Shown here: positions 42,395-63,768 of the stretch, piece by piece
How the letters are laid out: each line of letters opens with the position of its first letter
Position numbering within the stretch: position 1 is the stretch's first letter
Assembly (NCBI GenBank): GCA_913056235.1
Contig: CAJXMW010000001.1
Coordinates: forward strand, 372,001-436,000
Source: an uncultured Fodinibius sp.
GTDB taxonomy: Bacteria; Bacteroidota; Rhodothermia; Balneolales; Balneolaceae
Length of the DNA: 64,000 nucleotides
Direction of reading: 5' to 3'
The notes under the pieces: generated by a model
Told to the model about the DNA's origin: nothing
Databases searched by the model: none
The model's input: only the letters and a program-made list of their open reading frames with translations
Position numbers and translations under genes: made by a program

Positions 42395-42430
42395 CAAACA
42401 GTCAAATTTCAAACCAATAATCTCAATATT

Positions 42431-44277: not shown

Positions 44278-44413
44278 AACTGCTCTTTATTTTTCCTATT
44301 CCTTTTATCTCATTCAATCCCAATCTGTCCCATCCGTTAACAGCTCATTGCACCCTATTCCAGCCCATCCCGGGGTATTTCCCTTGATTTAAAATAGTGT
44401 TACGTTGACATCG

Positions 44414-45459: not shown

Positions 45460-45480
45460 CCGACTTTGAATAACCCCGCC

Positions 45481-45894: not shown

Positions 45895-46122
45895 ATGCCG
45901 ACCATTACTCAACAACCCGTTACCAATCTGCGAGACAACATCTACGATACCCTGGATTGCCCCGGCATAACGACCATCTCACGCTCGGGGCAATTTACGG
46001 GCGTGCTGATCAGCCTGGGTGACCTCGACCCGAAATTAGCCAAACGCCTGCAAGATGTCACAACGCGCAACCCCGAGCACGGGCTACAGCTACTGCTCGA
46101 CTATATCACCTACCGCTCTTGA
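45895..46122 (+). CDS. Small protein, unknown
   Basis: 75 aa. ISRSGQFTGVLISLGDLDP in the middle and a helical C-terminus (GLQLLLDYITYR). The stop codon (TGA at 46120-46122) overlaps the TTG start of the next gene. No family is recognised. Its tight packing in the block supports its being real. Confidence 0.55.
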   Translation: MPTITQQPVTNLRDNIYDTLDCPGITTISRSGQFTGVLISLGDLDPKLAKRLQDVTTRNPEHGLQLLLDYITYRS

Positions 46123-47150
46123 GCAGCCACTATCCCCATATAATTCCTTCCCGACAAGCAGTCACTACTGACGATTCAGTGACGAGCAAAAAGGCGGCAG
46201 CACCCTCTCCCCAAAGAGGTGTTGCCGACCCTATTATTACCCACCGGCGACCATACCCTGGTATTGAAAGCGTCTTGGGACTAGCTTCCCAGCTGGTCAC
46301 CAAGTACACTGGGCGCGAGGACATCCGCGAGCTAGCGCTAAAAATCACTCGTAGGGTTCCCAGGAATATAAGCACAGGCCTGCCTGACCTACGAAATATA
46401 GATCAGATTGCAGGTGCCATTTACAAGTGGATGACGAGCAACATCAACTACGTCCGCGACCCCTGGAATATCGAACGCATTCAGTCCCCGGATGTCACCT
46501 TACGGCAAAAAGCCGGAGACTGCGACGACCACGCAATCCTGTCGGCGGCCCTGCTACAAAGCTTAGGGATCCAAACAGGTTTTCGCATTGTCAGCCGAAC
46601 GGGGCGAACCTACGACCATATTTATACCGTCCTTCGCTCCCCACAAGGATGGAAATCCTTTGATACTACCGTAGCTAAATATCCCGGATTTACTTTTGAC
46701 GAACGACTGATTAAAAAGTCCAAACACCTTCCCAACCGGATGCCGGAAGGATTAGGTATTGACCCGATTACCCTGACGGCTGCGGCCACGATGGCTCTGC
46801 AAACCGGCGTTACCATGAAGAGCATGTTTTCCAAATGGTTTGGCGCGAAGGATAAAGACGAGCGTATCCAACGCGGGCAATGGCGAGACTATCTGATGGC
46901 CCGAGGGGTCCGCTCGGATGTCATTTCGTTTTCTCAAAAGGATAACGCGATCCTCAGGAAGTACGCTCAGGTTATCCAAGAGTACGGCCAACCGGCCGTT
47001 GATCATCTAAACCGGTTCGGTAGTCTGGACAATAGTTTTTACGCGAATCAACAGAAAATCCAACACAAGAAATGGCTCCTCTACGGCGGACTCTCGGCCG
47101 GGCTTCTCACGCTGGGCGGGATGAGCTATTGGGCCCTAAACCACTCCTGA
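46119..47150 (+). CDS. Transglutaminase-like protein with C-terminal membrane anchor
   Basis: 343 aa. The start is a TTG overlapping the previous stop; no nearby ATG fits, and no strong ribosome-binding site is seen, so translation may be coupled. Residues about 85-205 form a transglutaminase-type core with Cys135 in KAGDCDDHAI, a His in TYDHIYTVL and an Asp in FDTTV. The C-terminus is one membrane span (WLLYGGLSAGLLTLGGMSYWAL). It may be a peptidoglycan or protein-processing enzyme of the virion membrane. It is one of nine anchored proteins in this block. Confidence 0.75.
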   Translation: MSSHYPHIIPSRQAVTTDDSVTSKKAAAPSPQRGVADPIITHRRPYPGIESVLGLASQLVTKYTGREDIRELALKITRRVPRNISTGLPDLRNIDQIAGAIYKWMTSNINYVRDPWNIERIQSPDVTLRQKAGDCDDHAILSAALLQSLGIQTGFRIVSRTGRTYDHIYTVLRSPQGWKSFDTTVAKYPGFTFDERLIKKSKHLPNRMPEGLGIDPITLTAAATMALQTGVTMKSMFSKWFGAKDKDERIQRGQWRDYLMARGVRSDVISFSQKDNAILRKYAQVIQEYGQPAVDHLNRFGSLDNSFYANQQKIQHKKWLLYGGLSAGLLTLGGMSYWALNHS

Positions 47151-47154
47151 CCTT

Positions 47155-47565
47155 ATGAGTAGTGCTTACTTACAACCTATAGCGATAACAAACGACGATG
47201 ATCAGTTGATCATACCTAATAGCCTACGTAGTGGCTTAGACGGCTGGGAAGAAGATGATCCCTGCCGGTATGCCAACCAAAGCTGTAAGGGAAAAATGTT
47301 CGGCAAGCTCAAAAGCTGTCGGCGCAAGCGCGAAAAATCGCAGGCCCTCTGCAAGGCCCACGAGCGCAAGCTGGCTGAAAAAAAGAAAATAGAACAGGAG
47401 AAACAGCAGCTCATGACGGCGCTTCAGCATAATGTTACTGATACTGCTGCCAAGCAAGAGACGGCCAGCACCGCCATGATTGCCGGGGCCGCTGTCGGAG
47501 GGGTAGCCATCCTGGGAGCTGTGGTCTTCCTGATTGCCAAAAAGAAAAAATCTAAACCGCAATAA
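47155..47565 (+). CDS. Tail-anchored small membrane protein
   Basis: 136 aa. A soluble part with a Cys pair region (DPCRYANQSCKGKMFGKLKSCRRKR) and a basic coiled coil precedes a single C-terminal hydrophobic helix (AMIAGAAVGGVAILGAVVFLIA) and a basic tail (KKKKSKPQ). No signal peptide is present, so it is inserted by its C-terminus. This organisation is typical of small virion membrane proteins. No family is recognised. Confidence 0.65.
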   Translation: MSSAYLQPIAITNDDDQLIIPNSLRSGLDGWEEDDPCRYANQSCKGKMFGKLKSCRRKREKSQALCKAHERKLAEKKKIEQEKQQLMTALQHNVTDTAAKQETASTAMIAGAAVGGVAILGAVVFLIAKKKKSKPQ

Positions 47566-47580
47566 CCTATCCCTACTCCT

Positions 47581-47946
47581 ATGAACAGCAGCTCTTTCGA
47601 TCAAATCGATTTTTTGCAAACCACTCGTCCATTCAGTTATAGCCTTACCAATAGCACACTCCCACCCGTGCAATCCACCACCACGAAGAAAACCAAGTTT
47701 GGCAGCATTCTGAATGACTTGTCAAGCTTTTTGACTACGGCAGCTGATACGGCAGTAACCGTGGACGGGGTTATCAATCGCGGAAAAAACAACCCGTCAG
47801 GCAATGGCCTGACCCCCCAGCAACAAATGGCGCTCCTGCAAGCCCAAAAATCGAGCGGCCCCAATATGACAAGCATGTTGCTTATTGGCGGTGTGATCGC
47901 CGTCGGTGGGGGTATTATGTATTCGATGTTAAAAAAGAAGGCCTAA
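47581..47946 (+). CDS. Tail-anchored small membrane protein
   Basis: 121 aa with a Ser/Thr-rich soluble part (residues 1-95) and a C-terminal span (MLLIGGVIAVGGGIMYSML) ending KKKA. The Gln-rich part QQQMALLQAQK precedes the span. No family is recognised. It is separated from its neighbours by only 15 and 1 bases, so it is co-transcribed with them. Confidence 0.62.
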   Translation: MNSSSFDQIDFLQTTRPFSYSLTNSTLPPVQSTTTKKTKFGSILNDLSSFLTTAADTAVTVDGVINRGKNNPSGNGLTPQQQMALLQAQKSSGPNMTSMLLIGGVIAVGGGIMYSMLKKKA

Positions 47947-47947
47947 T

Positions 47948-48265
47948 ATGATAGAAGCTATTCAGACAACAAGTCATCCTGTAGGTATTTCCCACTACAC
48001 AGACGGGCATATTCCTAGCGGGCGCTATCCAAATCCCTCTCAATCGGAGGAAAAAGTTTACCTGCAACCGGCCATCGAGCTGCAAGATGTGGCCAAGGGA
48101 GCCGTGGTGAAACCTTCCGACAAAAAATCTCTCTGCCAGCAAATGGCTGAAGAACACCCAGGCGAAGCCCTCCGGGATTGGCTGATCCGCAATAAAAAGA
48201 CCCTGGGATGGATCGCCGGGGGATACCTCGTATTTCGAATCATAACCAGACGAAAACAGCAATGA
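47948..48265 (+). CDS. Tail-anchored small membrane protein
   Basis: 105 aa; ATG 47948. A soluble part with a helical middle (DKKSLCQQMAEEHPGEAL) is followed by a C-terminal hydrophobic helix (LGWIAGGYLVFRII) and a basic end (TRRKQQ). The stop codon overlaps the next start by four bases (ATGA). No family is recognised. Confidence 0.62.
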   Translation: MIEAIQTTSHPVGISHYTDGHIPSGRYPNPSQSEEKVYLQPAIELQDVAKGAVVKPSDKKSLCQQMAEEHPGEALRDWLIRNKKTLGWIAGGYLVFRIITRRKQQ

Positions 48266-48948
48266 CCCAGACCCAATCTGCATATAGCGACAACGGGCTA
48301 GGGGCCACCCCTATATCCGGCAATATTATAAGCTCGGAGGCGGGAGAACTTCGCATTATCGGTCGGCATCCCGAGCGCGGGCTGCCCAAATCCGGTGTTC
48401 CTTTCTCTATCGATATCGAGATTGACCGCTACCGCAACTTCTGGAACTCGTTTCTGCTGATCTCCTGTCCGGACGCGGTTGTGGCAGCCCTGGATCCCCA
48501 AAGCCGAAAGGTACTGGCTATATCCCGCATCCTCACAAGCATGTGGGATGGGTGTCGGGGGCAAACGCGGCTGGTCTTCGGGCGCTCCTTCAGGCCCGAC
48601 CGCAATCATCCGGTTATATTTGAACTGCACCCCGGTAATGTAACGGAGGCTACGATATCGGGGGCCAAACCCTTGGCAACGTCGAAGGTGATGACGCTGG
48701 ATCTGGATATCGAGGAAGGCCAACAAAGCGGGGTGTATGCTCCGCCGACTGAGCCGTGGTACGAAATTAGCTTGCCGAACCCGCAAAGCGCATTCAGTGG
48801 CGTCAACAGCACGCTCACCAAAGCATTATGGCTGGTGGGCATCGGCGCCGGAGCGTACTTTCTCGGCCCTCTGATGCCCGGCCTGCGAGACAGTCTGAAA
48901 CAGATCACCCAGCCAGGCAACAACGACGAGGATCAAAAGAATGCGTGA
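48262..48948 (+). CDS. Beta-rich protein with C-terminal membrane helix
   Basis: 228 aa from ATG 48262 (overlap ATGA with the previous gene); the longer frame from 48208 is discarded because it overlaps the previous gene. Residues 20-170 alternate strands (GELRIIGRHPERG, FSIDIEIDRYRN, VIFELHPGNV) and look like a jelly-roll or Ig-like fold, but I cannot assign it. One hydrophobic helix near 190-210 (LWLVGIGAGAYFLGPLM) is followed by a short polar tail. It may be a virion membrane-associated protein. Confidence 0.6.
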   Translation: MTQTQSAYSDNGLGATPISGNIISSEAGELRIIGRHPERGLPKSGVPFSIDIEIDRYRNFWNSFLLISCPDAVVAALDPQSRKVLAISRILTSMWDGCRGQTRLVFGRSFRPDRNHPVIFELHPGNVTEATISGAKPLATSKVMTLDLDIEEGQQSGVYAPPTEPWYEISLPNPQSAFSGVNSTLTKALWLVGIGAGAYFLGPLMPGLRDSLKQITQPGNNDEDQKNA

Positions 48949-49345
48949 GCTAATCGAAGGCCTTGATTATCAGATTGTCGATGACGGGATGGGCGACCTC
49001 AACAGTTATCTCCGCCAGACAAGTCGAAACGCATTCAAAAAAGCCATTGGCCTTGCCGATCGCGCTCTGAGTGGTCGGAAAGGACAAGCCGCTACCACGG
49101 CCCTTGTCCTGGCTGATCTGACCAAAGATAAGCGGTCCTTCCAACAGGTTTTCAACCAAAACGCCGATGTCATTAACCGTTATTTCGAACACGTAGATCT
49201 GCAGGCGGTAAGCGATATGATCGGAATCCAAAATGCAGTCACTAAAAGTAAACCTGTATCTATAATCAAACAGACCGGTATTTTTTCCGTTGGTATCGCC
49301 CTTGGCATTGCCGGACTCACCTTATATAACCGAAAACGATCTTAA
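48941..49345 (+). CDS. Helical protein with C-terminal membrane anchor
   Basis: 134 aa; overlaps the previous gene by 8 bases. A helical soluble part (FKKAIGLADRALSGRKGQAATTALV) ends in a membrane span (VGIALGIAGLTLY) and basic tail (NRKRS). Same architecture as its neighbours. No family is recognised. Confidence 0.6.
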   Translation: MRELIEGLDYQIVDDGMGDLNSYLRQTSRNAFKKAIGLADRALSGRKGQAATTALVLADLTKDKRSFQQVFNQNADVINRYFEHVDLQAVSDMIGIQNAVTKSKPVSIIKQTGIFSVGIALGIAGLTLYNRKRS

Positions 49346-49348
49346 TCA

Positions 49349-49672
49349 ATGACACTCAACATAGGCGACAAAGGTCCCCAGGTCATGCACCTGCAGTCAG
49401 CTTTAAAGGCTATTGAAATTGAGCTCCCCAAATATGGCGTCGATGGCATCTTTGGCCCCGAAACCCAGGCGGCCGTCCGACAGGCACAACAAAAACTGGG
49501 ATTGCCTGCCAGCGGCGTAGCTGACCAGCCTCTATTAAACAGGCTCGGCATTAACCGGCAAGCTTTACAAGTACCGCTAAGCACTCCCACAGCAAAACCA
49601 GCTCTCCTTGCCATAGGGGCCATCGCCATTATTGGAATTGGAATCGCAATTAAACAAACCAAACGGAAGTAA
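49349..49672 (+). CDS. Peptidoglycan-binding domain protein with C-terminal anchor
   Basis: 107 aa. Residues 5-60 are a PG_binding_1 domain (GDKGPQVMHLQSALKAIEIELPKYGVDGIFG in two parts, ETQAAVRQAQQKLGLPASG), which holds on to murein. A Pro/Ala linker leads to a membrane helix (LLAIGAIAIIGIGIAI) and a basic tail (KQTKRK). In a virion this could attach an entry enzyme or spike to the cell wall during infection. It starts 3 bases after the previous gene. Confidence 0.82.
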   Translation: MTLNIGDKGPQVMHLQSALKAIEIELPKYGVDGIFGPETQAAVRQAQQKLGLPASGVADQPLLNRLGINRQALQVPLSTPTAKPALLAIGAIAIIGIGIAIKQTKRK

Positions 49673-49673
49673 T

Positions 49674-50933
49674 ATGGAATCTATGACTGCCCAGCAGCTT
49701 GCTAAACTTAATATCAAAGGCATTAAAATTGCCCCACCCTATGGAAGACTTCTGGGCGAACCCGAGAAAAATGCCGTGATTTTTATTTGGGGCGAAAAAG
49801 GAGCCGGTAAATCTACCATGAGTCTGGGACTAGCAGACGCGCTGGCCGCCCACGGACGCATCGAGTACATTCCCGCCGAGGAGCACTTTGGTAAAACCCT
49901 GGTCGATCGCGTCAAGCGCCTGGGAGCTACCCACCGGAACCTGAATTTTACCAAATGGAAATCGATTCAGTCCCTCAAAGAAGTTCTGCTTAAGAATCAG
50001 TCCTTCGCCTGTATCCTAGATTCCATTTCGGTGATTGATGCCAACGCGAAAGAAACAGTGGAGTTGGCCCAGTGGTGCCGCGAAAACGGGATTATGTTCG
50101 TCATGGTCTCGCATGCCACCAAAGACGGCCAGTACAAAGGCAACACCAGTATCGCCCACGAGTGTGATATCGAGATCAAGGTCACCAAAGAAGGCGGGGC
50201 CGAAACCGAGAAAAACCGATACCGAGAACTTACGTCCATTGCCGTACCATTTACAGCGGATGATCGACAGGTACCCACCAACACATCAGTAGAAGATAAC
50301 TCCGACGACAACCGAGAAAATCCTGTGGATACGCCTTTTAAAATTACGCTAAAGGAGCTCGACAAACTTCACAAAATCCGATCCTGGAAACGCATCAACT
50401 CCATGTTTGGAAGCAAGATGCCGTGTTACGCCCCGAAGCATTCCGGGGAATCTGAAAATGCCCACCTGTCCATCCGGTACACGGCCGATTACCCGAAAAA
50501 GCGGTATATCATGGACTTACTTCTGGACGGGCACTTGGAGTACCAAGCCTGCACAGAAGGCAAAGGAGGTGGGCTAAAAGCGTGCTGGAAAAAGTTAGTC
50601 AACAAGTATGGAGATTTGGAGATCCGAATTTACAAGCAGGACCACGCCAAAGTCGTGCTGGGCGCCAAAGAGTACAAGCGCCAGGAACGTGCGCTGGGCA
50701 AACAGGACATGAAATCCACTCCGGCCAGCTCACCAGCCCCAAAGACCAAGAAGAAACCAGTGACTGAGCCAAAGCCCGCTTCTACCAAGCAGCAAGAAAA
50801 AACTTCGTCGAACAAACAACCAACGACGAAGGATATTTCATCTGGCCAAAAACCAGAGCAGCAGATAGACCTCAAAGCCGCCAAACAAAGCCAGGCTAAA
50901 CTGGATGCTTTCCTAACCAAAGTTTTAGGCTAA
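49674..50933 (+). CDS. RecA-superfamily ATPase (RadA-like core)
   Basis: 419 aa from ATG 49674, 1 base after the previous stop. Residues 30-200 hold the RecA/RadA-like core: Walker A WGEKGAGKSTM near 40, the EEHFG helix, a Walker B-like ACILDSISVID near 115, and the FVMVSHATKDGQYKGNTSIAHECD segment near 145, the K-x-G-x-x-G-N signature of RadA-like enzymes. The C-terminal 130 residues are Lys/Pro/Thr-rich and disordered. In this setting it could be a recombination or DNA-packaging ATPase; it does not look like an FtsK/HerA-type packaging motor. Confidence 0.75.
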   Translation: MESMTAQQLAKLNIKGIKIAPPYGRLLGEPEKNAVIFIWGEKGAGKSTMSLGLADALAAHGRIEYIPAEEHFGKTLVDRVKRLGATHRNLNFTKWKSIQSLKEVLLKNQSFACILDSISVIDANAKETVELAQWCRENGIMFVMVSHATKDGQYKGNTSIAHECDIEIKVTKEGGAETEKNRYRELTSIAVPFTADDRQVPTNTSVEDNSDDNRENPVDTPFKITLKELDKLHKIRSWKRINSMFGSKMPCYAPKHSGESENAHLSIRYTADYPKKRYIMDLLLDGHLEYQACTEGKGGGLKACWKKLVNKYGDLEIRIYKQDHAKVVLGAKEYKRQERALGKQDMKSTPASSPAPKTKKKPVTEPKPASTKQQEKTSSNKQPTTKDISSGQKPEQQIDLKAAKQSQAKLDAFLTKVLG

Positions 50934-50938
50934 CCCCC

Positions 50939-53900
50939 ATGCGAGACAACCCAACTGTAACTCCTTTTGAAGATATTACAACCGATGACTATCCCGGTAT
51001 TTTCGGGGATTTTGACGGCGACGGCATTCCCAACGTCGACGATCCCAACCCACAGAGGGCTGGTGACACCGATACCGTCGAAGAGACCAAACTCACTGAC
51101 GAAATCAAGCAACTAATAGATCTGCGCGGTGATTATCAGCAAGCTCTCGATGAAGTAATCGGGAAGCTCCAAGCCCTGCAACCAGCCGCCACGATTAAGG
51201 GACGCGTGAAGTCTCCGTACTCAGTCATCAACAAACTACGTCGCAAACGGATTAAGACAGAAATTAAAACAACCAGTCCTGGCGAAAATTACATCCAAGG
51301 GCTGACCGATATGGCCGGATGCATGATTGTTTTGCCGGGTCAAGCTGTGCTGGATCGGGTAGTCCAGCAAATAGCAACAGGGGTAATCGGAGAAGTGTTT
51401 GAGCATGAAGATAAATACACCAATCCGGTCGGCGGTTATCGGGCCCACCACTTTATTGTAATGGCTGGTCAAGGGGGAGACATCCCAGTAGAGGTTCAGG
51501 TAAAGACCAAGCGCATGGCCCAAATAGCCAGCGCAGCTCACACCCCGTACAAAAATGGCACCCTTAATATCCAGCGAATGAACCAGCTCTCTGATCTGGC
51601 CTGGCAAGCTGACCAAGGTGGTAAGCAGGCAGCCACTATTATCGACAACCTTCTTGAAGAACCAAGAAAGCTGGCTGAAGAATTATCTTTCCGAGAAAAT
51701 CCTTCCAGCAAGCTGCAACAGCTCCAGGATTCCTTCACCGAAACCGTCAAGAAACTGGCCCTGGCATTTTCGCTCGATAAGTTTCCCAAGGAACACCGAA
51801 AAGAGGCCTTAAAGCTTTTTCGTAGCCACGGGCAAGTCATCGGCGTCGATTTCGACGAGGTATTTGCTGCAGCCCAAAAGACTACGAAAACTCCGAAAAA
51901 AGAAGACGACCGATCATATGGGCCCGCCGGGGATCGCGCGGGAGAAGCGAAATATGGAAGCGATTTTTCTGGCCTCCAGCTTGCAAATTTTGCTCCTATA
52001 AAACTCTCCAAATCCGAGCGACGACGGGCCAACGAAGCGGCCTTGGCGGTCTTGGAAAAAGAGGATCGGGCGATAACCGAATCCGACCTGGACACCCTTC
52101 GCTGGTACACCGGGGCGGGCGGACTTGGATACGGAGAGAATCGCACCGGCACCGAGCGCGGGCTGCTCAACGAGCATTATACCTCCTACCCCTTGATACA
52201 GCTGATCTGGGATAAACTCCAAGCTATGGGCGTGGACGGGGGCAACATATTAGAGCCCGGGGCGGGCATTGGCAACTTTGCGGGATTTCTGCCCAATACT
52301 GATAGCTACCGTATGCTGATGGTTGAACGGTCTGCGGTAAGCGCGCGCATCGCCAGACTTTTATATCCTAATCAGTTAGTTAAACACCAAAACTTTGCTG
52401 ATACCGATCTATCGCTATATAATCTTACCGGCGCCATAGGCAATGTCCCCTTTGGCGATATAAAGATCCATACCCAGCGCGACCCGCTGGCCCACCTGAA
52501 TCCCCGTATTCACGACTACTTTATTCTAAAGTCCCTGGACGCCCTCCAACCGGGCGGTTTTATGGCCGTCATCACCTCGGTCGGTACGATGGACAAAAAG
52601 GATCCGGCCATCCGACAGGCCATGGTCCAGCACGCCCGATTTGTAGGCGCATACCGGTTGCCCTCGACTGCGTTTAAAGATAATGCCGATACGCTGGTTA
52701 CGACCGATCTTATTTTGTTTCAGAAGTATCCTGACGTTGACGGGGAAACCCACCCCGATATTAACAGTGAATTAAACCAGTTGTTTGCTTACGAGGAACT
52801 GGCCGTCAGCATCACTGAACATAACGGAGAATCCTACGGTGCTTACTACAATCCCTACTTCCAAAAGTATCCCGAGCAAGTATTAGGCGAACATATCCAG
52901 GGCCACGACATGCAGTTTTTGACACGCATGGGCGTAAAAGGCCAAGTGGACCAAGCGATGATTACCCGCGTGCTGGAAGATAATCTGGAGTTCCCCTATC
53001 CGCTTCCGGAGTCAGCACCGTTTTACCGGATCCCCGATGAAGGAGTGCGACTGAATACCGGCCGGGAGTACCATGCTGGGAACATCATTTTCCACGAAGA
53101 CAAATTCTATGAAAAACAGCGCCACTATTTTAAGCCTCTTGCCGTAGGCGGCAAGGAGAAGGCGGGAGAAGGACTTCGGGAGAAAATAGCCTCGGCCTGC
53201 CAGATGCTCGACACCTACGATGATTTCGTGACCGCACTGGCCCAGGATACGGGGCAAAAAGAGCCGCTCCGCGAGGAATTCAAGGGGCTGCTTCAGACCC
53301 ATATCGACACCTACGGCATCCCCGATGAAGACGAAGACATCCGCCAGGTATTCCGCTACGACAACCGCCTGTATAAACTCACGACCTTTGTAAAGCGCGA
53401 TCCCATTAGCGGGGAGCTAGTCTACGCGGATATTATTGATGCCGATTCGATGTTCAACAACAACTACGTGCCCGCGGTATCGGACTCCGACGACCTGGCC
53501 GAAATTGCCATGTACGGTCGCTCTATAGGCGAAGACCTTACGCTGGATTTCTACCAGTCCACCTACAAAGGAGGCACAGCCAGCCGGAATGAACTCACTA
53601 AAGCAATCGAGAATCACCCTGACTTCTTCTACAATCCGGAGTCCAATGGTTACGAGTTCCGCTACCAGTACCTGGCCGGTAATGTCCGCCGCAAACTGGA
53701 AGTAGCCGAAGACAATCAGTTGGAGAAAAACATCGAGGCGCTCCGGACAGTCCTCCCAGAATGGATTGATGCCTACTCGATTACCGTGGATCCCCGCCAC
53801 ATTTTCACCTATCTGCCCACGAAAGTACTTACTCAATGGATAAAAGATGAACTCGGCTATCGGGACGTCCACATCGGACTCGTCAAAGATAAAGCCGACC

Positions 53901-56900
53901 TAGGCAATCGTTTCTACATGAAACTCCGCAAAGGCGGGCGATATATTAAAAATGGTGAAGAGACGGCTGACGACTGGAACCAGGGTTGGGGCGAGACACC
54001 CTTCAGCAAAATAATTAACAACTATATCCAGGATTCCAGTTTCCCGCTGGTCTTCTACGATGAGGACGACAACGTTCTCCCGAACATGACCCTAAAACGA
54101 GCCGAGCAAACCGGCCAGCAGGCACTGATCGAGCGAGCCCGCGCCAAACAGCGCACCCACAACGATCAGATGCTCACGCGCGTGCCTCAAAAGTTCAACC
54201 AATGGATACGCACCAAAGCGCCCGGCGAGGTTCGCGAGCTCATCGAGCAGGCGTACAACCACGAATACAACGCCCATATTAATCCCCAGTTTGACGGAAA
54301 CACGCTCCGCGTGCGCGGTATGTCCGACACCTTCTACGGGGTCAAGGATTTTACCGTGTACAAACACAACCGGGCGGTCGCCGAAAAGCTGGTTTGGAAC
54401 GGGCGGGGTGCTAATTGCCACGATGTGGGCGCTGGTAAGACGCTCTCCTCAATTATTACTTCCCAGGTTCTGTTGCAGCAGGGCGCCTGCCGAAAACCCA
54501 TGTTTGTAGTGCCAGGTAAAGTCCAGGAGAAATGGGTGGAAGAATACTCCATGCTATTCCCCGATGCGAAGATCCTAAATATGAAGATGGCAGGGGAAGA
54601 CCGCCATAAGGAGCTAACCATGGCCCAACTCTACAACTGGGATGCGATCTTTATTGCTGACCACGCCTTCAAGAGCCTGCCGCTCTCTCCATCGGTGCAG
54701 CAGGATATGTACAGCGAGCGCGTAGAGTATTTTGATCAGATGATTGATAGCTTTGACGAGCTCATCGAAGAAGATGACGCGCTAAGCTCCACGGCCAAAA
54801 AGTCGATGGTGACGCGGCTGGAGAAAATGAAGGAGGAATGGGATGCGAAGCTCCGTAATGTGTCCAATGCCAAGCGACTCGACACCGATATCTTTTTTGA
54901 TGAACTCGGCGTGGACGCCCTCTTCTTTGATGAGGCCCACTTCTACAAAAATGCCCTCGGCAGCGCGAAAGCCGTTAAGCTGGGCATCGCAGCTAATAAG
55001 CCTTCCCAACGAGCCGAAGACGCCCTTCAAAAAACGAAGTGGCTGTTTTCGAAAATAGGTTTTAAAAACGTTTTTGTCCTGACTGCTACCCCAGTCGTCA
55101 ATTCTCCGGCCGAAGTATGGCACATGCTCAACCTCTGTGCCCCGGACCTGTTGGAGAAATACCAAATTGCCAACCTCGACAACTTCATCAACCAATTCGT
55201 CCGCGAGGAGGAGAAGATCGTCAAAAAGACCAACGGTGAATATCGCACCGAGCGCGTGGTGGCCGGGTATTACAACCTGCCGGAGATGCGGGCCATCATC
55301 GATGAGGTCATGGACATCAAAAGTTATGATCAGCTGATGGGGTTCTACCAGAAGTATCCCGATTATCTTAAAGACGTGTCCGGCAACGTAGTCACCGACG
55401 AGCAAGGAGAGCCAAAAGCCCTAAAGCCGAAATTCAAGCGACCCGAAGCCGAAACCAAACAGCAGGTCATCGAACCCAGCGAGATTCACAAATTGTTATT
55501 CGATGATATTATCCTCCGGGCCGACAGTATCCTGGACTGCATGCGCCAGCGCGGATGCCAGACCAAAGATAATTTCCTGGTGATCACTGGCGATGGCAGC
55601 AAAATTGCGACCGACCTTCGCGTCTATGACAACAGTTTTAAGGGCGTCGATGGCAAATTCCTGAAGCTGGGTGCCCTAGTCGATAACGTAGCGGAAAGTT
55701 ACGCTACCCGCGAAAATCCCGCCCCAAACAGAATACCGGAAAGCATTTATGGCGACTTCTTTTCGAAGAGTATCCATCACATGCGAGAAAATCCGAACCT
55801 ATACAAAGGCCGGTCCCGACACAAACTTATTAAAGAGCTCAAATCCCTTGGCCACTTTGAGGAGGTTGCCCAAGAAATTCAGGCCACCGAAGGTGACCTT
55901 CACGAAGTCCCGGTAGGCAAGCAATTCTTGCTTAAGAAGATTGAGAAACAACGCGAAAAACACTCCGATGGCAGCGACCAGATGGAGGAAACTTTCGACC
56001 GGGCGATGATGATTGTCGAGGCGCTATATAGCGACCGGGAGAATCCAGCGCCTCCCACCTTCCGCAACCAGATTATCTTCTGCGACTGGATCTCCGTGGA
56101 AGGCCAAAAAGGGGGAAGTTATCATCAGCTGATCAAAGAGGAACTGTCGAAAACTAGGATCCCAAAAGATCAAATCGCCATTATCAACGGCTCTATCATT
56201 GGCACCGACAGTAAGGGCAATGATTACTTTATTTCATCCTCTGATGATAAAGAAGCCCTCAAAAAACAGGTCCAGGATGATTTCAACCTAGGCAAATACC
56301 GCGTGCTTATCGGCAACCAGTCTATCGCCGAAGGGATGAACCTGCAGAAATGGACCACCGATCTGCATCACATGGATGTGCCGTACACCCCCTCGCAGAT
56401 CCAGCAGCGCAACGGGCGTGGGCTCCGCCAGGGCAACCAGCACGGCAAGGTCAATATTCATTTTTACCTGATGAAGGATTCCTTCGATCAGTACCGCCTG
56501 GAGCTGGTCAGCAAGAAACAAAGCTGGATTGATGAGCTATTTTTCGGAGACGGCCGGGAAACCTCGGCTGATTCTGAGGGAGAGTCCCTGGAGTACGAAC
56601 AGATGGTCGCCGCCACAAACTCCGACCCCAGAGTCAAAGAGTTCTTCCAGTCCAAGGCCCAAACCAAAGTGCTAAAGGCTCGCATCGAGTCGCTGCTCAG
56701 CGAATCCCAGCGCCTGGAATCCTCGCTCGCGCAGGCCAGTCAGGATGTAACCAAACGCTCTGAGCGCATGGAGGCGGCTATCGGTCGCGAACAAGCCCTT
56801 ATTGATTCGGAGCTGCCGAACTCGGGGGCAGAAGCCCTAAATAACGGACTCATTCGCATCGGCTGGCTAGACTACAGCGGAGAAATTGGATCCATTGAAA

Positions 56901-58204: not shown

Positions 58205-58224
58205 CCCCCATAAACCACCATCCT

Positions 58225-58746
58225 ATGACCCAACGAGTATTTGCAAAAAATCCAACCCACTTGGATGTAATCGAAAACCCAACAACCCCAAAACCTGCAA
58301 CTATGGCAAAACAACTAACAACCGAAAAAGCGGTAAGCGAATTTAAGCAACAGCTTATCACTGCCGGATACATTGTGGGCGGCCAGGCAATTGGTGCGCA
58401 GCTGAATGGGCTGGCCGTTCCCGCTATTTTAGGCGGCACCTCGGCTACCGTCCAGCAAGCGGCCCGCGTCGGCCTGCCCCTCACCTTAGGCATGGTCTTC
58501 ACCATGTTTTCCAAAAACTCACACCTTCGCGGTCTCGCAATGGGACTAGGCGTACAAGGCGTCATGGAACTGATCAAGTTCATTATGCCCGACTGGACCC
58601 CCTCGCAAGGACTCATGGAAGGAAGTGAATATCTGTGGAACGAGGAGGACCTACCGGCTACCGTTGCGCCCCAGATTCCAATGCCCGACGGAACAGGACA
58701 TGTTTCTCAACTTGAAACCGCATTTGAGGAGACCGTGGAAGTCTAA
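58225..58746 (+). CDS. Hydrophobic membrane protein, unknown
   Basis: 173 aa. An N-terminal polar part with two Asn-Pro motifs (KNPTHL, ENPTTP) is followed by several hydrophobic stretches (YIVGGQAIGAQLNGLAVPAILG, LPLTLGMVFTMF, MGLGVQGVMELIKFIM) and an acidic tail. It probably spans the membrane two to three times. No family is recognised. It precedes the candidate capsid genes. Confidence 0.55.
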   Translation: MTQRVFAKNPTHLDVIENPTTPKPATMAKQLTTEKAVSEFKQQLITAGYIVGGQAIGAQLNGLAVPAILGGTSATVQQAARVGLPLTLGMVFTMFSKNSHLRGLAMGLGVQGVMELIKFIMPDWTPSQGLMEGSEYLWNEEDLPATVAPQIPMPDGTGHVSQLETAFEETVEV

Positions 58747-58853
58747 CTACGAGTTTCTCTACTCATAGCTCACGCTGAACAGGGGACTGCTTACGGGAAT
58801 AAGCTAACGGCCTAATGGCCCTACCTAAAAACCCCTATAAACATTTACGACCT

Positions 58854-59474
58854 ATGAGTACCCAAATTTCAAAAAAAGCAATTGTACCCGCCAGCGCCCG
58901 CATCAAAACCTATTTTGATACGCAGAAAGTAGAACAAAACGGGGCGGTTCTAAATTTCTTTCCGCCGAATTCCACCCGGAAAATTACCCGCAACAATTAC
59001 GTGGGCAATCCTTTTCCCGGTGAACTGAAACGACGTATTCTGGCGTTGTCGTTCGAAGTGACCAAGCAGTTTATCGAGGATGACGAGGCTAATGGTATCG
59101 ACGCCCAGGCCATTGTCAACTCCCTAAAAGATGCCGGTGTGATCTTGCAGGCTGACAACGACAATAAGGAGTTCCTGCGCGTGCCCATCGCCAAGCACTC
59201 CAACTTTTCGGGCACCGATATCCAAACAGTAGCCGGAACGGCCAACACAGTCGATGCTCCTGTCATATACAAAGATGTTGCCTGCCTGCGATCGGCCGCC
59301 GAATACCGCTTGGCGGATCCTTTTGATCTTGCCGTCAACCAGACCCTCTCGCTCTCGGTTCATTTCGAGGATTCCTCGGTATTCCCGAGTGAGGAGAACT
59401 GGACAACTTCCGCCCAAGGCCTGCTCTACCTGCAAGCCAGCATTGTCGTCGCTGAAATGAAACCCGAGAAGTAA
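58854..59474 (+). CDS. Candidate small major capsid protein (single jelly roll)
   Basis: 206 aa from ATG 58854 (MSTQISKK); an ATG at 58815 would add 13 residues (with KNPYKHLRP) and cannot be excluded. The sequence is beta-strand-rich throughout (VLNFFPPNSTRKI, QTLSLSVHFEDSSVFP, LLYLQASIVVAEM) with no signal or membrane segment. The FPPNSTRKITRNNYVGNPFPG start and the LSVHFEDSSVFPS hairpin resemble strand pairs of jelly-roll capsid proteins. The gene sits next to a second all-beta protein, a pairing known from phages with two single-jelly-roll capsid proteins. Assignment is inference. Confidence 0.5.
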   Translation: MSTQISKKAIVPASARIKTYFDTQKVEQNGAVLNFFPPNSTRKITRNNYVGNPFPGELKRRILALSFEVTKQFIEDDEANGIDAQAIVNSLKDAGVILQADNDNKEFLRVPIAKHSNFSGTDIQTVAGTANTVDAPVIYKDVACLRSAAEYRLADPFDLAVNQTLSLSVHFEDSSVFPSEENWTTSAQGLLYLQASIVVAEMKPEK

Positions 59475-59546
59475 CCCCACCCAACCGGCAGCGGCTCCTG
59501 GCCGTTGCCGGCTTTATTAATTGCTCAAACGCTTGCCTACATCATT

Positions 59547-60326
59547 ATGAAAATAGTAAAGAATTTTATTCCTCCAACCGAGTCTTCGCCTTTTAATCCG
59601 GCCAAATCGATTGACATTCCTGCCGGTGCCAGCGGCCACCTTTCGATGAATGGCATGGGCGGAGAAAGTTTCGGCGTCCGAAAAATACTACCCTACAGCT
59701 CCCACATGGACAAGGTACTCGTTTCCGCTCGGTTAAATGAAGACTTGTACCTGTTTCGCGACCTGCAGATTTCCGCAGTACACCGACTTTTCCAACAGAT
59801 CGATGGACTACTTGCCCCATTCATCATACAAAAAAGTAATAGCTTGGTATTCGAGCTGACCAATACCCACAACGCAGCTCAGACCGTAAATATCCAACTC
59901 ATCGGTTATGATCACTATAGCATGGCCAAACTGTTAAGCATTTACTCCGACATTGGAAGCCCAATGCCTCAGCCGCGCTTTCTCTACGGGCAGGCTACCA
60001 TAAATCCGGGCGCTGTCAATATCGATATGGGCGTCAAAGCGAAAAGCACTGACGTGGAAGCCCGCCGATTGGCCATGACCAGCGACCGTCCGGGCGATAT
60101 CACCGCTAGCCTGAAGATCTATAATACGACTATCCGCAATGAGGTTTATCTGGAGCAACTTAACGACGAGTTCGGCCAGTTCTATGCCAACGTCCCATTT
60201 ATCATTGGCTCGAATATGCCGTTCCAGGTCTATGCCACTAATAAAGGTTCTTCCCAGGCTAACGTGAGTTTTCTGTGTGAAGCTTATGTGGTTGAAACAT
60301 CCGACGCTAATCCACTGGAGGTATAG
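59547..60326 (+). CDS. Candidate large major capsid protein
   Basis: 259 aa from ATG 59547 (MKIVKNFIPPTE), as the longer frame from 59505 starts with an unsupported hydrophobic leader. All-beta composition without signal or membrane segment: SLVFELTNTHNAAQTVNIQL, ASLKIYNTTIRNEVYL, PFQVYATNKGSSQANVSFL are typical exposed strands and loops. Its length and beta content fit a single or double jelly roll of tailless phages. No HK97-type motif was noticed. It lies 72 bases after the other candidate. Confidence 0.5.
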   Translation: MKIVKNFIPPTESSPFNPAKSIDIPAGASGHLSMNGMGGESFGVRKILPYSSHMDKVLVSARLNEDLYLFRDLQISAVHRLFQQIDGLLAPFIIQKSNSLVFELTNTHNAAQTVNIQLIGYDHYSMAKLLSIYSDIGSPMPQPRFLYGQATINPGAVNIDMGVKAKSTDVEARRLAMTSDRPGDITASLKIYNTTIRNEVYLEQLNDEFGQFYANVPFIIGSNMPFQVYATNKGSSQANVSFLCEAYVVETSDANPLEV

Positions 60327-60330
60327 CCCC

Positions 60331-60750
60331 ATGTGGAACAGCCTCATTCAATCGCTTTGCGAGCTTACCGGGAAAATGGATGCGCTGCTGGAGCAACTAC
60401 AGGCTCCCTCTACATCCATTGGCATCGGCCCAGCCGGTCGCATTGGGACCTCCATATCACCCGTCCTCAAGCAGGGGACCCAGCCGGTAAAACTGGTAAA
60501 TGGAAACCCCACGCGGCTGGGCGTCATCATCCATAACAGCAGTGACGGGGAATTTATGATCGCACTGGACGAGGCTCGCATCGACGGGCGGTATTACACC
60601 TTTAAGCTCAAACCCGGCGAAACCCTACATATGGATGAGCGCCAGTTTAAGGAACTCTATAAAGGCGGGATGATGGGCCTGTGGGATGAGGAGTCGGGAG
60701 CCTTGGAAACCTCAAAAGCCCTCGTAACCGAAATCTTCTGGACCACCTAG
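60331..60750 (+). CDS. Beta-rich small structural protein, unknown
   Basis: 139 aa from ATG 60331. The N-terminal 30 residues are helical (LIQSLCELTGKMDALLEQLQ), then beta-rich (RLGVIIHNSSDGEFMIALDEAR, YYTFKLKPGETLHM). The overall shape resembles small decoration or vertex proteins of virions. No family is recognised. Spacing to both neighbours is only 1-4 bases. Confidence 0.55.
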   Translation: MWNSLIQSLCELTGKMDALLEQLQAPSTSIGIGPAGRIGTSISPVLKQGTQPVKLVNGNPTRLGVIIHNSSDGEFMIALDEARIDGRYYTFKLKPGETLHMDERQFKELYKGGMMGLWDEESGALETSKALVTEIFWTT

Positions 60751-60751
60751 C

Positions 60752-61303
60752 ATGAGCGAAATCACCGGCAAGGAGTTTTCTGAAGGGTTTAACATGAGGG
60801 TCGTCAGTGGCATGCTGGTCGACGGCTCCATCCAGGTGTCATGGGCCACCGGCAGGAAGGCCTCTTCCCAGATGGATTGGGGACTGGATCCAGATAACCT
60901 GGCCACGACTCCCGAGTACCACCGCGAGCCTTCGGAGATGGTGCGTTACCATACGCTGTATTTCCCCATTACCTACCTGGATGCCCGACACTATTTTCGC
61001 GTGCGTTCAAAGACGGCGGGTGGACAGATCGGCCAATCACGCATTTACTCGGTTATTACGCCCGATGATGTCCAACGGACTACGCAGTCTCCAACTGGTC
61101 AGGTTATCTTGGAACTGCAACCCATCGACGACCAAGACGGGCATCTGTCCTGCACCCCAGCAACGGATATCCGTGCTGACCACCAGCCGGAAGCTATCTC
61201 TCAACCCATAACGAGTGGACTGTCTGCTGACGAAAATCTCTCGGAGCTGACGGGAGCCACCAGTAGCAATGCCACCACTAACCCCATTACCATTATCTCT
61301 TGA
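60752..61303 (+). CDS. Fibronectin-type-III-like structural protein
   Basis: 183 aa. Residues 15-105 resemble an Ig/FN3 fold (GSIQVSWATGRKASSQMDW, VRYHTLYFPITYLDARHYFRVRS, GQIGQSRIYSVITPDD), with W and aromatic residues in the expected places. The last ~75 residues are Ser/Thr/Asn/Gln-rich and flexible. Such domains are common in spikes and fibres of virions. It is 1 base from the previous gene. Confidence 0.6.
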   Translation: MSEITGKEFSEGFNMRVVSGMLVDGSIQVSWATGRKASSQMDWGLDPDNLATTPEYHREPSEMVRYHTLYFPITYLDARHYFRVRSKTAGGQIGQSRIYSVITPDDVQRTTQSPTGQVILELQPIDDQDGHLSCTPATDIRADHQPEAISQPITSGLSADENLSELTGATSSNATTNPITIIS

Positions 61304-61307
61304 CCGT

Positions 61308-62759
61308 ATGAATACCATCAATCAAACTCTTTCTATTGGCACCCCGAAATCAGGGATGGATCTGTTTTGCAACGTCAGCATCGACGGGAAACACCTGTTT
61401 CGGATGCACTGCGAGTCCTTCGTAGGCAACCTGCTGCGCGACGTCCAGGGGATGATGCACGGCGGTAAAACGGATCGGCTGATTAGCCCCGGTGACGATT
61501 ACGTGCAGGATGGCAAAATAACGTCTATGCAAATTGTTAATGGGGCCCTAGAAATCTACAGCCAATACTATCTTCAGTATATATTTAGTGGTATGCACGG
61601 CGTAAACCCCAATGGGGAAAAGCCCGTTTGGGTACACATCTGGGGATGTAGCTCGGTCCCGCAAATCAACGGCACCTGGCAGGTCGAAAGCACCCATGGC
61701 GACTATTATATCCGCCTGAAAGACGGGCCAACCAATTTTGACCCGGCAACTTACGTGGCCGACCAGGCGAAGGTTATTGCCAAGCACTATCATCCCATTA
61801 CGACTACTGAAAGTTACTGCCCACCTTTCCGCGTCATTTTGCCCACCATTGGGCAAGGCAGCCGGCCGGTTAGCATCTCCGATGTGGGCCTGCACAATCC
61901 CATTGACGCTCTGCTGGCTCGGGGAGCTCGATCGGTTTCAGGCGTGGTCACCGATCAGCAAAAAAGCGTCTTTACCGTTTCAGCCCCGTTTACCAACGGT
62001 TCCGGGGGCGATCTGGCTATCACCGAAATGGGCCTCATGACCCACATTAATGTGGGCCGCCATGAAATTAACACCATTGCCACCCTGTATGCCCGCGATG
62101 TGCTACCGGCAGCCCTGAACCTGCCCAATGGTAAAACGCTGACGTTAGACTACGAGTGCCGGTTTGAGCTTGAAAACTTTAACCAGGATACAGACCTCAA
62201 CGGTTCCAACGGCGGGTTCACCGCCGAATTTGTAGGCGCCTTGCGTCGACAAGCGGTCGAAAATACCAATACCAACTGGCGGGACCTGATGTGTATCGCT
62301 GGCGGAGGGACTTCGATGACCTCGCTAGAGCGCCGGGCCTCGGAGATCAACAAAGGGTGGCATCTGGGACTCCGATTGGGCCAAAGTAACAAATTCGTTT
62401 CCATGACGGACACGGACCTGTCCCCCGATGCTACCCAAGAAACGGCCTACAGCCTCGGAGGCATCAGCCATGGCAGCGGAGACGGCCAGCTCATCCATCA
62501 CGGGATGATTATCGATGACCAAGTAACCATTGATGAGGCAAATAATGAAGCCTACTTCAACCTAGATCGCGTATTTGAAAACCGGGGTGCTACCGACATC
62601 ACCATTAAAGAAGTCGGGATATACGCCAACCGGGGGAATGATTATGATGAATGGGTGCCCAAGCTGATAGCTCGCCAGGCCCTGGCCCCGGCCGACCAGT
62701 TTACCATTATGGCCGGACAAATGCGCAAGGTGGGCTACAAGATCAAGATGGTGGTCTAA
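61308..62759 (+). CDS. Large structural or spike-like protein
   Basis: 483 aa from ATG 61308; the longer frame from 61269 overlaps the previous gene and is not used. Beta-rich throughout with repeating NGTWQVESTHGDYYI-like and FTVSAPFTNGSGGDLAITEMGLMTHI segments, the latter resembling parts of tail-spike or receptor-binding proteins. A related ATDITIKEVGIYA motif recurs near residue 435, so the protein may contain two similar domains (MGLMTH / EVGIYA). The stop codon overlaps the lysozyme start (TAATG). Confidence 0.58.
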   Translation: MNTINQTLSIGTPKSGMDLFCNVSIDGKHLFRMHCESFVGNLLRDVQGMMHGGKTDRLISPGDDYVQDGKITSMQIVNGALEIYSQYYLQYIFSGMHGVNPNGEKPVWVHIWGCSSVPQINGTWQVESTHGDYYIRLKDGPTNFDPATYVADQAKVIAKHYHPITTTESYCPPFRVILPTIGQGSRPVSISDVGLHNPIDALLARGARSVSGVVTDQQKSVFTVSAPFTNGSGGDLAITEMGLMTHINVGRHEINTIATLYARDVLPAALNLPNGKTLTLDYECRFELENFNQDTDLNGSNGGFTAEFVGALRRQAVENTNTNWRDLMCIAGGGTSMTSLERRASEINKGWHLGLRLGQSNKFVSMTDTDLSPDATQETAYSLGGISHGSGDGQLIHHGMIIDDQVTIDEANNEAYFNLDRVFENRGATDITIKEVGIYANRGNDYDEWVPKLIARQALAPADQFTIMAGQMRKVGYKIKMVV

Positions 62760-63319
62760 TGGTCAGCTCATTTTCGGTATCAGCAGAACTTACGTACATC
62801 CGGATCCGTGGCCTGATGGGACATTTCACCGAGGCATCCAAACGGTATGGGATTCCCCTTGCCCTGTTGCTGGCAGTCGCCTCCCGCGAGAGTCGCATGG
62901 GACTGGCCCTTTCGGCCGACGGCACCGGTGATCACGGTAACGGGATAGGAATCATGCAGATTGACCGGCGATATCATCCCGGTTTTACTGGGAGCCACAG
63001 CCCCTTTAATCACCGGGCTAACATTGACTATGGCACCGAGTATCTCGCTAAACTGCTCAGACAATTCAATGGAAATACCACCCGGGCCGTAGCCGCCTAT
63101 AATGCTGGTCCCAATAAAGTGCAGACCGCCATATACGCGGGCTTGCCCCCTGATTCCGTCACCACCGGTGGGGATTACAGCCAGGATGTGATGGGGCGAA
63201 AACAGCTAATTGACCAGCTACTCGGCCTCTCCAAGGCAACCAGTTTGTCCATATACGTCCTACCTATGGCCGCTATAGCATTTACAACCTATAACTATAT
63301 GACCTCCGAAAGCCCATGA
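62759..63319 (+). CDS. Lytic transglycosylase (SLT/lysozyme-like) with C-terminal anchor
   Basis: 186 aa from ATG 62759. Residues 20-150 are a goose-type/SLT lysozyme-like domain: AVASRESRMG with catalytic Glu about 43, GNGIGIMQIDRR, TRAVAAYNAGPNKVQ, in family order. The C-terminal hydrophobic segment (IYVLPMAAIAFTTYNYM) is an anchor, so the enzyme likely sits in a membrane and opens the peptidoglycan during infection. It overlaps the previous stop and the next start by single codons. In a lysis-only role, an anchored form would be unusual. Confidence 0.85.
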   Translation: MVSSFSVSAELTYIRIRGLMGHFTEASKRYGIPLALLLAVASRESRMGLALSADGTGDHGNGIGIMQIDRRYHPGFTGSHSPFNHRANIDYGTEYLAKLLRQFNGNTTRAVAAYNAGPNKVQTAIYAGLPPDSVTTGGDYSQDVMGRKQLIDQLLGLSKATSLSIYVLPMAAIAFTTYNYMTSESP

Positions 63320-63768
63320 ACACCGAATCATGTTATGTAAACGACCAGTCCAATGAAGCACAAGGATTGGGGCGGATGCCTACCCGACCGGCAATGCTTC
63401 TTCCCATTCCGGATGAACCTGTCTCGATCATTCGAAATCAACCAATAAGACCACGAATACGGCCACGCCCTATTCCAAAACTCAAGCCCGTGCTTAAACC
63501 TCGGCCAGTTATTGACAAGAATCCCGTCCGACCACCTAAACTAATTGTAAATGCTGCTAAAAAAGCTTCAAAGCCCAAACCCAATAAAGCAACAAAATCT
63601 ACGAAAACCAAGGCTCCCCAAAAAACAACTAACAATGGTCCAATAAAAGATAGCAAAGACATCCTATCAGGCACTTTTAACATTGGTGGGTTAGAGATCA
63701 AGAAAACCCATGCCGTTGCGGGTGGTGCGACCATATCCGGGCTGCTGCTCTGGAAACTCCTTTTTTAA
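63316..63768 (+). CDS. Pro/Lys-rich protein with C-terminal membrane helix
   Basis: 150 aa, beginning on the previous stop (ATGA). Residues 30-110 are dominated by Pro, Lys, Arg and Ala repeats (RPRIRPRPIPKLKP, KPKPNKATKSTK), followed by a C-terminal membrane helix (HAVAGGATISGLLLWKLLF) with almost no tail. The basic extended part could bind DNA or membrane lipid head groups. No family is recognised. Confidence 0.6.
   Translation: MNTESCYVNDQSNEAQGLGRMPTRPAMLLPIPDEPVSIIRNQPIRPRIRPRPIPKLKPVLKPRPVIDKNPVRPPKLIVNAAKKASKPKPNKATKSTKTKAPQKTTNNGPIKDSKDILSGTFNIGGLEIKKTHAVAGGATISGLLLWKLLF

Follow-up and report, generated by a model that had tools for sequence, protein, structure and literature searches.

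The window analysed here is a stretch of 64,000 nucleotides (C1:372001-436000) of the 3.97-Mb genome of a Balneolaceae bacterium in the Fodinibius group. Rightwards from a tRNA-Arg gene at 25866 it contains an element, called A below, which is very probably an integrated, mobile provirus of a tailless icosahedral phage similar to SSIP-1, with the virion encoded in its right half (21 kb). The same genome (G000) contains two further elements of this kind: B, which shares the contig of A, and another, more distant, on C5. The genes of the virion block of A are as follows. Three starts were corrected from relatives: 58854 (not 58815), 59547 (not 59505) and 60331 (not 60277).

44464..45459, +: conserved protein rich in coiled coil, with which the virion block begins; the version in copy B is 76% identical, and the third element of the same genome has a homologue
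45466..45885, +: homologue of the C-terminal part of SSIP-1 gp33 (blastp E 9e-6)
46119..47150, +: transglutaminase/cysteine-peptidase-fold protein with a C-terminal helix (Pfam Transglut_core 9e-10); homologue of SSIP-1 structural gp34 (blastp E 2e-32)
47155..47565, +: tail-anchored protein (helix; ratio of nonsynonymous to synonymous substitution rates, dN/dS, 0.09)
47581..47946, +: tail-anchored protein (helix; dN/dS 0.08)
47948..48265, +: small protein with a marginal C-terminal helix (helix peak)
48262..48948, +: tail-anchored homologue of SSIP-1 gp35 (blastp E 3e-6; helix)
48941..49345, +: tail-anchored homologue of SSIP-1 gp36 (blastp E 0.002; helix)
49349..49672, +: tail-anchored peptidoglycan-binding protein (Pfam PG_binding_1 2e-13; helix)
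49674..50933, +: packaging-type ATPase, homologue of SSIP-1 structural gp40 (blastp E 6.5e-30; hhalign; phrog_6891 4e-28)
50939..58204, +: giant polyvalent protein with RelA/SpoT synthetase-like, N6-methyltransferase-like and superfamily 2 helicase parts and a C-terminal domain (CTD) (Pfam; phrog_10089 DarB-like, E 1e-167; motifs)
57848..58204, +: the CTD, ending RG(I/L)LN, a proposed virion-docking module (alignment; distribution; blastp sharing)
58225..58746, +: homologue of SSIP-1 structural gp44 (blastp E 1e-8)
58854..59474, +: capsid protein 1, homologue of SSIP-1 structural gp45 and gp46 (blastp E 5e-19 and 1e-6; mostly beta model)
59547..60326, +: capsid protein 2, homologue of SSIP-1 structural gp47, predicted double jelly roll (blastp E 3e-8; AlphaFold2 model)
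60331..60750, +: homologue of SSIP-1 structural gp48 (blastp E 0.004; kept in relatives)
60752..61303, +: conserved virion-block protein (46-92% identity across 13 loci)
61299..62759, +: probable spike/receptor-binding protein, whose open reading frame may start at 61269 (weak phrog_4176 tail fiber match, 3.5e-4)
62759..63319, +: tail-anchored lytic transglycosylase, homologue of SSIP-1 gp54 (Pfam SLT 5e-16; 44% to gp54; copy B E 9e-34)
63316..63768, +: basic, proline-rich tail-anchored protein (helix)
63795..64000 in the window, ending at 64061, +: tenth tail-anchored protein, 88 aa (helix)

A preliminary description of this DNA had suggested a membrane-containing virion and had named SSIP-1 among the phages for comparison. 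This suggestion is supported, and SSIP-1 is the closest relative by both gene content and gene order. Eleven genes of the window have SSIP-1 homologues in the same order: 45466 (gp33), 46119 (gp34), 48262 (gp35), 48941 (gp36), 49674 (gp40), 50939 (gp43, C-terminus only), 58225 (gp44), 58854 (gp45 and gp46), 59547 (gp47), 60331 (gp48) and 62759 (gp54). According to the GenBank notes, from which all SSIP-1 assignments were taken, 13 SSIP-1 proteins are structural, and homologues of eight of them are found here (gp34, gp40, the C-terminus of gp43, gp44, gp45, gp46, gp47 and gp48). Both SSIP-1 capsid families, gp45/46 and gp47, are thus present in the element, and they were aligned across 16 of 17 genome-contig loci (L043 was omitted). 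In a tblastn search of 50,697 phage records, the 58815 protein matched only SSIP-1 (E 1e-13, two records of one phage), and SSIP-1 was the first match of the ATPase (E 1e-23). Capsid protein 2 alone matched nothing in these records, even at E 1; its link to gp47 came from direct blastp, profile alignment and the fold library. Passages in PMC4958249, PMC6356626 and PMC6260650 describe SSIP-1 as membrane-containing, and in PMC6356626 its genome is said to share hardly any similarity with other phages.

The element and SSIP-1 share the collinear structural block, a giant protein encoded after the ATPase with the same CTD, and many tail-anchored proteins. The sizes may also be similar: the SSIP-1 genome is 43.8 kb (circular, about 44 kb), and the distance here from tRNA-Arg to tRNA-Arg is 43.8 kb, the right attachment (att) site not having been found. 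Unlike SSIP-1, the element is integrated in a chromosome and contains a variable cargo slot. It has one gp45/46-type capsid gene where SSIP-1 has two, and its giant protein is of a RelA/SpoT-methylase-helicase type while that of SSIP-1 is methylase-ParB.

The small proteins had been described as nine with a single C-terminal hydrophobic helix, usually with a basic end. All nine open reading frames exist. The helix was measured as the 17-residue Kyte-Doolittle peak within the last 45 residues, a peak of 1.2 or more being clear. It is clear in eight of the nine, 46119 (1.23), 47155 (2.59), 47581 (1.86), 48262 (1.58), 48941 (1.86), 49349 (2.76), 62759 (1.58) and 63316 (1.56), and marginal in 47948 (0.98). 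A basic end is present in five (47155, 47581, 47948, 48941 and 49349), for which "usually" is slightly strong. A tenth such gene, 63795-64061 (peak 2.29), crosses the window end. With a threshold of 1.3, exactly one helix, at the C-terminus, is found in 8 of 24 proteins of the conserved block, in 0 of 77 neighbouring non-element genes and in 0 of 23 genes of the left arm (Fisher p = 7e-7). The excess is smaller in a looser test for any C-terminal peak of at least 1.2 (9/24 vs 14/100, p = 0.016). The helix is retained in homologues that were collected without the C-terminal 40 residues of the query: 25/25 for 62759, 20/21 for 49349, 19/19 for 48941, 7/8 for 46119, 9/9 for 63316 and 4/4 for 63795; for 47948 it is retained in only 1/4. 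SSIP-1 shares the feature, with a single C-terminal helix in 11 of its 57 proteins.

Three of the anchored proteins have cell-wall-type domains: the transglutaminase-fold protein 46119, the peptidoglycan-binding protein 49349 and the lytic transglycosylase 62759. PRD1 P7 and PM2 P5 are virion enzymes that act on the cell wall at entry, and the annotation of PM2 P5, a lytic enzyme of the virion, includes a predicted membrane helix, a likeness to the element. By analogy with these enzymes, the three proteins would open a way through the cell wall as the genome enters. The spike candidate 61299 evolves fast, with 36-38% identity between genera, vs over 60% for capsid protein 2.

No terminase, portal or tape-measure gene had been recognised in the preliminary description, and none was found after extension past base 64000. 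PHROG scans covered 39 different proteins, of which 36 are encoded before the conserved block ends and three beyond it, to 69239, with about ten cargo genes omitted; none of the 39 matched a large terminase, portal or tape-measure protein. The PF03237 large-terminase model matched nothing in the whole genome. A tailed phage (Caudoviricetes) was therefore rejected. Labels that might point to tails or to a terminase are weak or misleading. The phrog_4176 "tail fiber" match on 61269/61299 (E 3.5e-4) is a weak label on the probable spike, the "lytic tail protein" label on 62759 comes from its transglycosylase domain, and the phrog_800 "terminase small subunit" match on cargo gene 37496 (E 3e-10) falls on a protein that Pfam assigns to the 5-hmdU DNA kinase helical domain (3e-114). 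The Pfam matches of 44464 to FAM184 and FBF1 are weak, below cut-offs, and represent coiled-coil noise. The only PF04860 portal gene of the genome lies at G000:C1:1391129-1392184, ~0.95 Mb away, which suggests a tailed prophage elsewhere on the contig.

The packaging ATPase connects the element with other tailless viruses. Comparison by hhalign of its profile with 39 control proteins from P23-77, PM2, FLiP, SH1 and PRD1 gave the P23-77 packaging ATPase as the best match (91%, over its residues 33-150), followed by PM2 P9 and PRD1 P9, both below 10%; the SH1 ATPase reached only 1%. Its best Pfam matches are to families which we take to be RecA-like. The search against P23-77 proteins, proposed in the preliminary description, yielded a related ATPase and left the capsid proteins unlinked; the search proposed against FLiP proteins yielded no link to the capsid profiles by hhalign. 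The hhalign probability of the capsid proteins against P23-77 VP16/VP17 and SH1 VP4/VP7 was 0.3% or less. With P23-77 and viruses of the Sphaerolipoviridae type (Helvetiavirae), the element has in common a probable tailless plan, a pair of capsid genes close to the packaging ATPase, and lytic enzymes of the virion. It differs from P23-77 in the double jelly roll predicted for capsid protein 2 and in genome length, which exceeds twice the 17 kb of that phage. The predicted fold of capsid protein 2 may be shared with PM2, PRD1, STIV and FLiP (Bamfordvirae). The capsid proteins have no detectable sequence similarity to those of PM2, PRD1 and FLiP, and unlike in PM2, PRD1, STIV and FLiP, an extra capsid protein of the gp45/46 family is encoded directly upstream.

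The fold of capsid protein 2 was predicted with AlphaFold2 from an input of 18 sequences. The model of the 59547 protein (predicted local distance difference test, pLDDT, 85.7; predicted TM-score, pTM, 0.85) consists of two barrels with a helix after the same strand in each; the helix comes straight after the strand at the matching point of both halves (residues 75-82 and 202-207). Foldseek gave the STIV capsid protein first (E 7e-6), PM2 P2 third (3e-5) and phiCjT23 at 8e-4. In VIA-align, Z was 10.5 over 231 residues for STIV, 8.5 for PM2 and 8.2 for PRD1, with the enzyme PHM first by Z (11.9) and GH172/DUF2961 at 9.0; P23-77 VP17 was absent among the best 50 matches listed. These matches have a root-mean-square deviation of 4-5 A and TM-scores to solved structures of at most 0.52, and enzymes with the same fold match too. 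PHM, PNGase F and DUF2961 are named as cellular double jelly rolls in PMC8812541. The only close viral model is I1ZBI0 (256 aa, TM 0.86), which is presumably SSIP-1 gp47, judged by length and similarity. A compact double jelly roll, STIV/PM2-like, is the best reading of the model, of moderate strength. The 58854 protein is mostly beta (AlphaFold2 pLDDT 79) and matches jelly rolls only weakly: Foldseek found nothing at 0.001, and the best VIA-align Z was 7.7 (SPV1), below the safe level of the tool. Searches of PDB sequences with the capsid-protein-2 profile and the giant protein gave nothing useful.

It is rather unlikely that capsid protein 2 is instead a large protein of the P23-77 VP17 type with stacked barrels, and that the virus is an ordinary one with two major capsid proteins (MCPs) of the single-jelly-roll kind. 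A passage of the review PMC4958249 groups SSIP-1 with P23-77 and IN93, two-MCP single-beta-barrel viruses, and the table in PMC6260650 marks it as "single jelly roll?"; neither review passage includes any SSIP-1 protein structure. A match of the HHIV-2 chain 6h82_b to residues 1-122 (Z 9.2) also agrees with a VP17-type protein. The full-length matches, however, are the double-jelly-roll capsids of STIV, PM2 and PRD1 and the cellular double jelly rolls. The helix after the strand in both halves also argues against it, as helices after the F and F' strands are named in PMC8812541 as common to viral and DUF2961 double jelly rolls.

The giant protein has 2421 residues and is encoded between the ATPase and capsid genes. 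Pfam finds RelA_SpoT, SNF2 and Helicase_C in it. The RelA/SpoT region lies at residues 88-207, with GRVKSPYS and EVQVKT; further motifs are NVPFG at 502, GAGKT at 1164 and DEAH at 1331, to which we assign roles on assumption (NVPFG presumably being of the methylase type). With several effector and nucleic-acid domains in one chain that is encoded with virion genes, it is a polyvalent protein. RelA/SpoT domains are reported in polyvalent proteins in PMC5512222, the main text of which mentions neither Salisaeta nor "icosahedral". The motifs of the RelA/SpoT-like domain, at the start of the predicted payload, were not found in the L046 and L047 relatives or in SSIP-1 gp43.

SSIP-1 gp43, marked structural in GenBank, is a methylase with a ParB_N domain. 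By blastp, it has in common with the giant protein only the C-terminal 110-126 residues, and at the profile level some methylase families, such as phrog_9133 and phrog_3820, match both. In a third architecture, found in the C5 element of the same genome, in G007:C4 and in G059, the CTD ends a protein of 1017-1455 residues that starts with an ATPase. The CTD is the only part common by blastp to all three architectures, and every CTD-bearing protein listed ends with RGILN or RGLLN. Among 244 genomes of the class, the CTD was found at 25 places in 20 genomes, all of them capsid-positive. Among the capsid-positive genomes only G091 lacks it, and both of its contigs start less than 1 kb before the capsid gene. 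The C5 element (L050/L051/L052, G000:C5:215001-275000) is very different from A and SSIP-1-like. In it, the ATPase is joined to the CTD via a middle part which we take to be ParB-like.

The same position, the same partners, the variable payload and the fusion that ties the CTD to the ATPase point to a docking or packaging module: the simplest reading is that the CTD docks a swappable payload in the virion. It may instead have a structural or enzymatic role. A terminal packaging domain has precedent in P1 DarB, packaged in the head via an N-terminal signal of 30 residues (PMC9024508), and in the N4 virion RNA polymerase, whose C-terminal region is needed for encapsidation according to a passage of PMC5512222. 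The giant protein resembles P1 DarB in its DarB-like methylase-helicase core (phrog_10089). In contrast to DarB with its N-terminal signal, conservation here is at the C-terminus, and a tailless virus carries the protein.

The capsid-protein-2 profile was found at 27 capsid-gene places in 21 of the 244 genomes, and the capsid-protein-1 profile, searched among 195 relatives, at 27 places in the same 21 genomes. In an even sample of the phylum, the capsid-protein-2 profile was found in 15 of 394 genomes, all in the same taxonomic order. The 17 loci of the capsid profile scan belong to Fodinibius/Aliifodinibius, Rhodohalobacter, Gracilimonas, Balneola and related metagenome-assembled genomes; Fodinibius salsisoli, F. 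sediminis and Gracilimonas amylolytica are culturable carriers among them. Two contigs in the scan are labelled Chitinophagaceae; the genome G091, to which they correspond by gene position, is listed in Balneolaceae. Profile scans of IMG/VR for the capsid protein and the CTD returned only SSIP-1, and scans of viral contigs with the window ATPase and with capsid protein 2 as single queries returned no relative. The IMG/VR result suggests that virus catalogues miss such elements.

Copy B is 68-79% identical to A in aligned DNA blocks. dN/dS was calculated for 18 of the 23 orthologous pairs that A and B share; two of these had saturated dS, and the other 16 showed values of 0.05-0.23, indicating purifying selection. 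In a tree of capsid protein 2 with long branches, where 5 of 20 forks are well supported, A groups with G007. The DNA of A and of the G007 element is 88-92% identical and the flanking host DNA 67-79%. As the element is more alike than its flanks, it apparently moved between the two species after their split.

Gene content, gene order, homology, selection, distribution, helices and mobility as read from sequence all speak for a provirus. Several points weigh against this reading. Five of the 13 SSIP-1 structural proteins (gp1, gp37, gp41, gp53 and gp57) have no detected homologue here, and the SSIP-1 integrase is barely similar (E 0.013). By hhalign, both capsid profiles reached no probability above 1% against the 39 control proteins. 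Exact-repeat searches near both ends of the elements A, G007, G003, B and G002 gave no convincing right-end att repeat. The two related copies and the distant third one in a single genome, the cargo of host-useful defence genes and SSIP-1 as the sole environmental or viral-contig relative found would also agree with a domesticated or decayed element, such as a satellite or gene-transfer agent, which has kept the capsid block and ceased to be a virus. Such decay is improbable, since the matched capsid frames contain no stops at any of the 27 places for either profile, dN/dS is low, the element has its own integrase beside the tRNA-Arg, its resemblance between two species exceeds that of the flanks, and capsid, ATPase and lysis-type genes are all there. 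A conjugative or plasmid-like element with a DarB-like polyvalent protein, in which the small proteins form the transfer apparatus, was rejected as very improbable. DarB-like giants are also found on conjugative elements, as a passage of PMC5512222 reports, but the structural homology to SSIP-1 extends across the block, Pfam and PHROG scans of the element found no relaxase or type IV secretion system family, and capsid protein 2 is absent from 72,556 plasmids.

If A is a provirus of this kind, its cycle would probably proceed as follows. The tyrosine integrase would place the element beside the tRNA-Arg, followed by the repressor-like gene and the cargo slot. The small tail-anchored proteins would sit in a patch of the cell membrane that becomes the inner membrane of the particle. 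From SSIP-1 and the helices we infer this membrane, and likewise the path of assembly and the loading and action of the payload. The shell would be built from the two beta-sandwich capsid proteins, and the ATPase would pack the DNA. At entry, the anchored peptidoglycan binder, the transglycosylase and the transglutaminase-fold peptidase would breach the wall for membrane-borne genome delivery. The giant RelA/SpoT-methylase-helicase, loaded via its CTD, might enter with the DNA, blunt restriction and reset the cell.

The phage kind is known but almost solitary; what is new is the capsid fold prediction and the conserved end of the payload. The proviruses give near-solitary SSIP-1 a family in cultured and uncultured Balneolota. 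This family exposes the conserved parts, and therefore the core genes, the predicted double jelly roll and a CTD with very different giant partners become visible. It is tentatively proposed, with somewhat more doubt than confidence, that SSIP-1-like viruses are a large overlooked family of Balneolota, that they combine double-jelly-roll and single-jelly-roll-like capsid proteins in one virion and descend from an ancient branch between both lineages, and that they carry an exchangeable giant payload (RelA/SpoT-methylase-helicase, methylase-ParB or ATPase-ParB-like) loaded via one conserved CTD ending RG(I/L)LN. If true, this would be a natural protein-delivery particle with a plug-in port, and the CTD is a candidate loading tag for a membrane virus. 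The placement of SSIP-1 as a single or double jelly roll becomes testable with one structure. Among titles and the beginnings of abstracts, a scope that did not extend to subscription papers and preprints, nothing was found on such Balneolaceae proviruses or on a double jelly roll of SSIP-1.

The left part of the element contains the following features.

25866..25940, +: tRNA-Arg(tcg), left end of the element and probable attachment site (ARAGORN)
26121..27290, +: tyrosine integrase, directly after the tRNA-Arg (Pfam Phage_integrase E 1e-30; phrog_1 integrase)
28750..29163, -: Cro/C1-type helix-turn-helix repressor-like gene (Pfam HTH_19 3e-6; phrog_8 transcriptional regulator)
29881..32010, +: conserved 709-aa protein, possibly a primase or replication protein (only phrog_1829 DNA primase, E 0.0025; kept in related elements)
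33110..44300, no strand: variable cargo slot with defence and nucleotide/DNA-modification genes (alignment to G007; Pfam/PADLOC)

Homology with the G007 and G003 elements begins at 25865; at this point the B and G002 elements start with a tRNA-Arg reduced to its 3' part. In extended coordinates, the end of the conserved block lies near 65,750, outside the window, and the right boundary is known only as this end. The element is 39.9 kb long up to there, and 43.8 kb from the tRNA-Arg to the next tRNA-Arg (copy at 69,623). The host DNA 3' of the element in A, G007 and G003 follows quite different DNA in other species, and therefore an empty site is not readable.

In the cargo slot, 0 of 11191 bases align to G007, vs 21369 of 21373 in the core. 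By this comparison, the 11-kb slot is swapped wholesale between close relatives. It contains two M78-peptidase genes close to capP and an AbiEii-like fragment. The cargo at 36894-39465 encodes a MazG_C protein, a thymidylate-kinase-like protein and one with a 5-hmdU DNA kinase helical domain, which suggests base hypermodification or its counter-measure. The cluster at 42431-44277, with Multi_ubiq (ubiquitin-like), DUF6791-ThiF E1-like and DUF6527 proteins, may be a defence system based on ubiquitin-like conjugation.

Four full tRNA-Arg(tcg) genes are present in 76 kb of the chromosome, at 25866-25940, L003:6623-6697, L004:3087-3161 and L004:18686-18760. The latter three are 87-92% identical to the first. 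The four genes were probably left by successive integrations at a single hot spot. In copy B (G000:C1:1220001-1320000), a 3' fragment of a tRNA-Arg marks the left end, and a second one lies 75.8 kb away, ~30 kb past the last viral gene; because of these two fragments, its integrated unit may be far larger than the virus.

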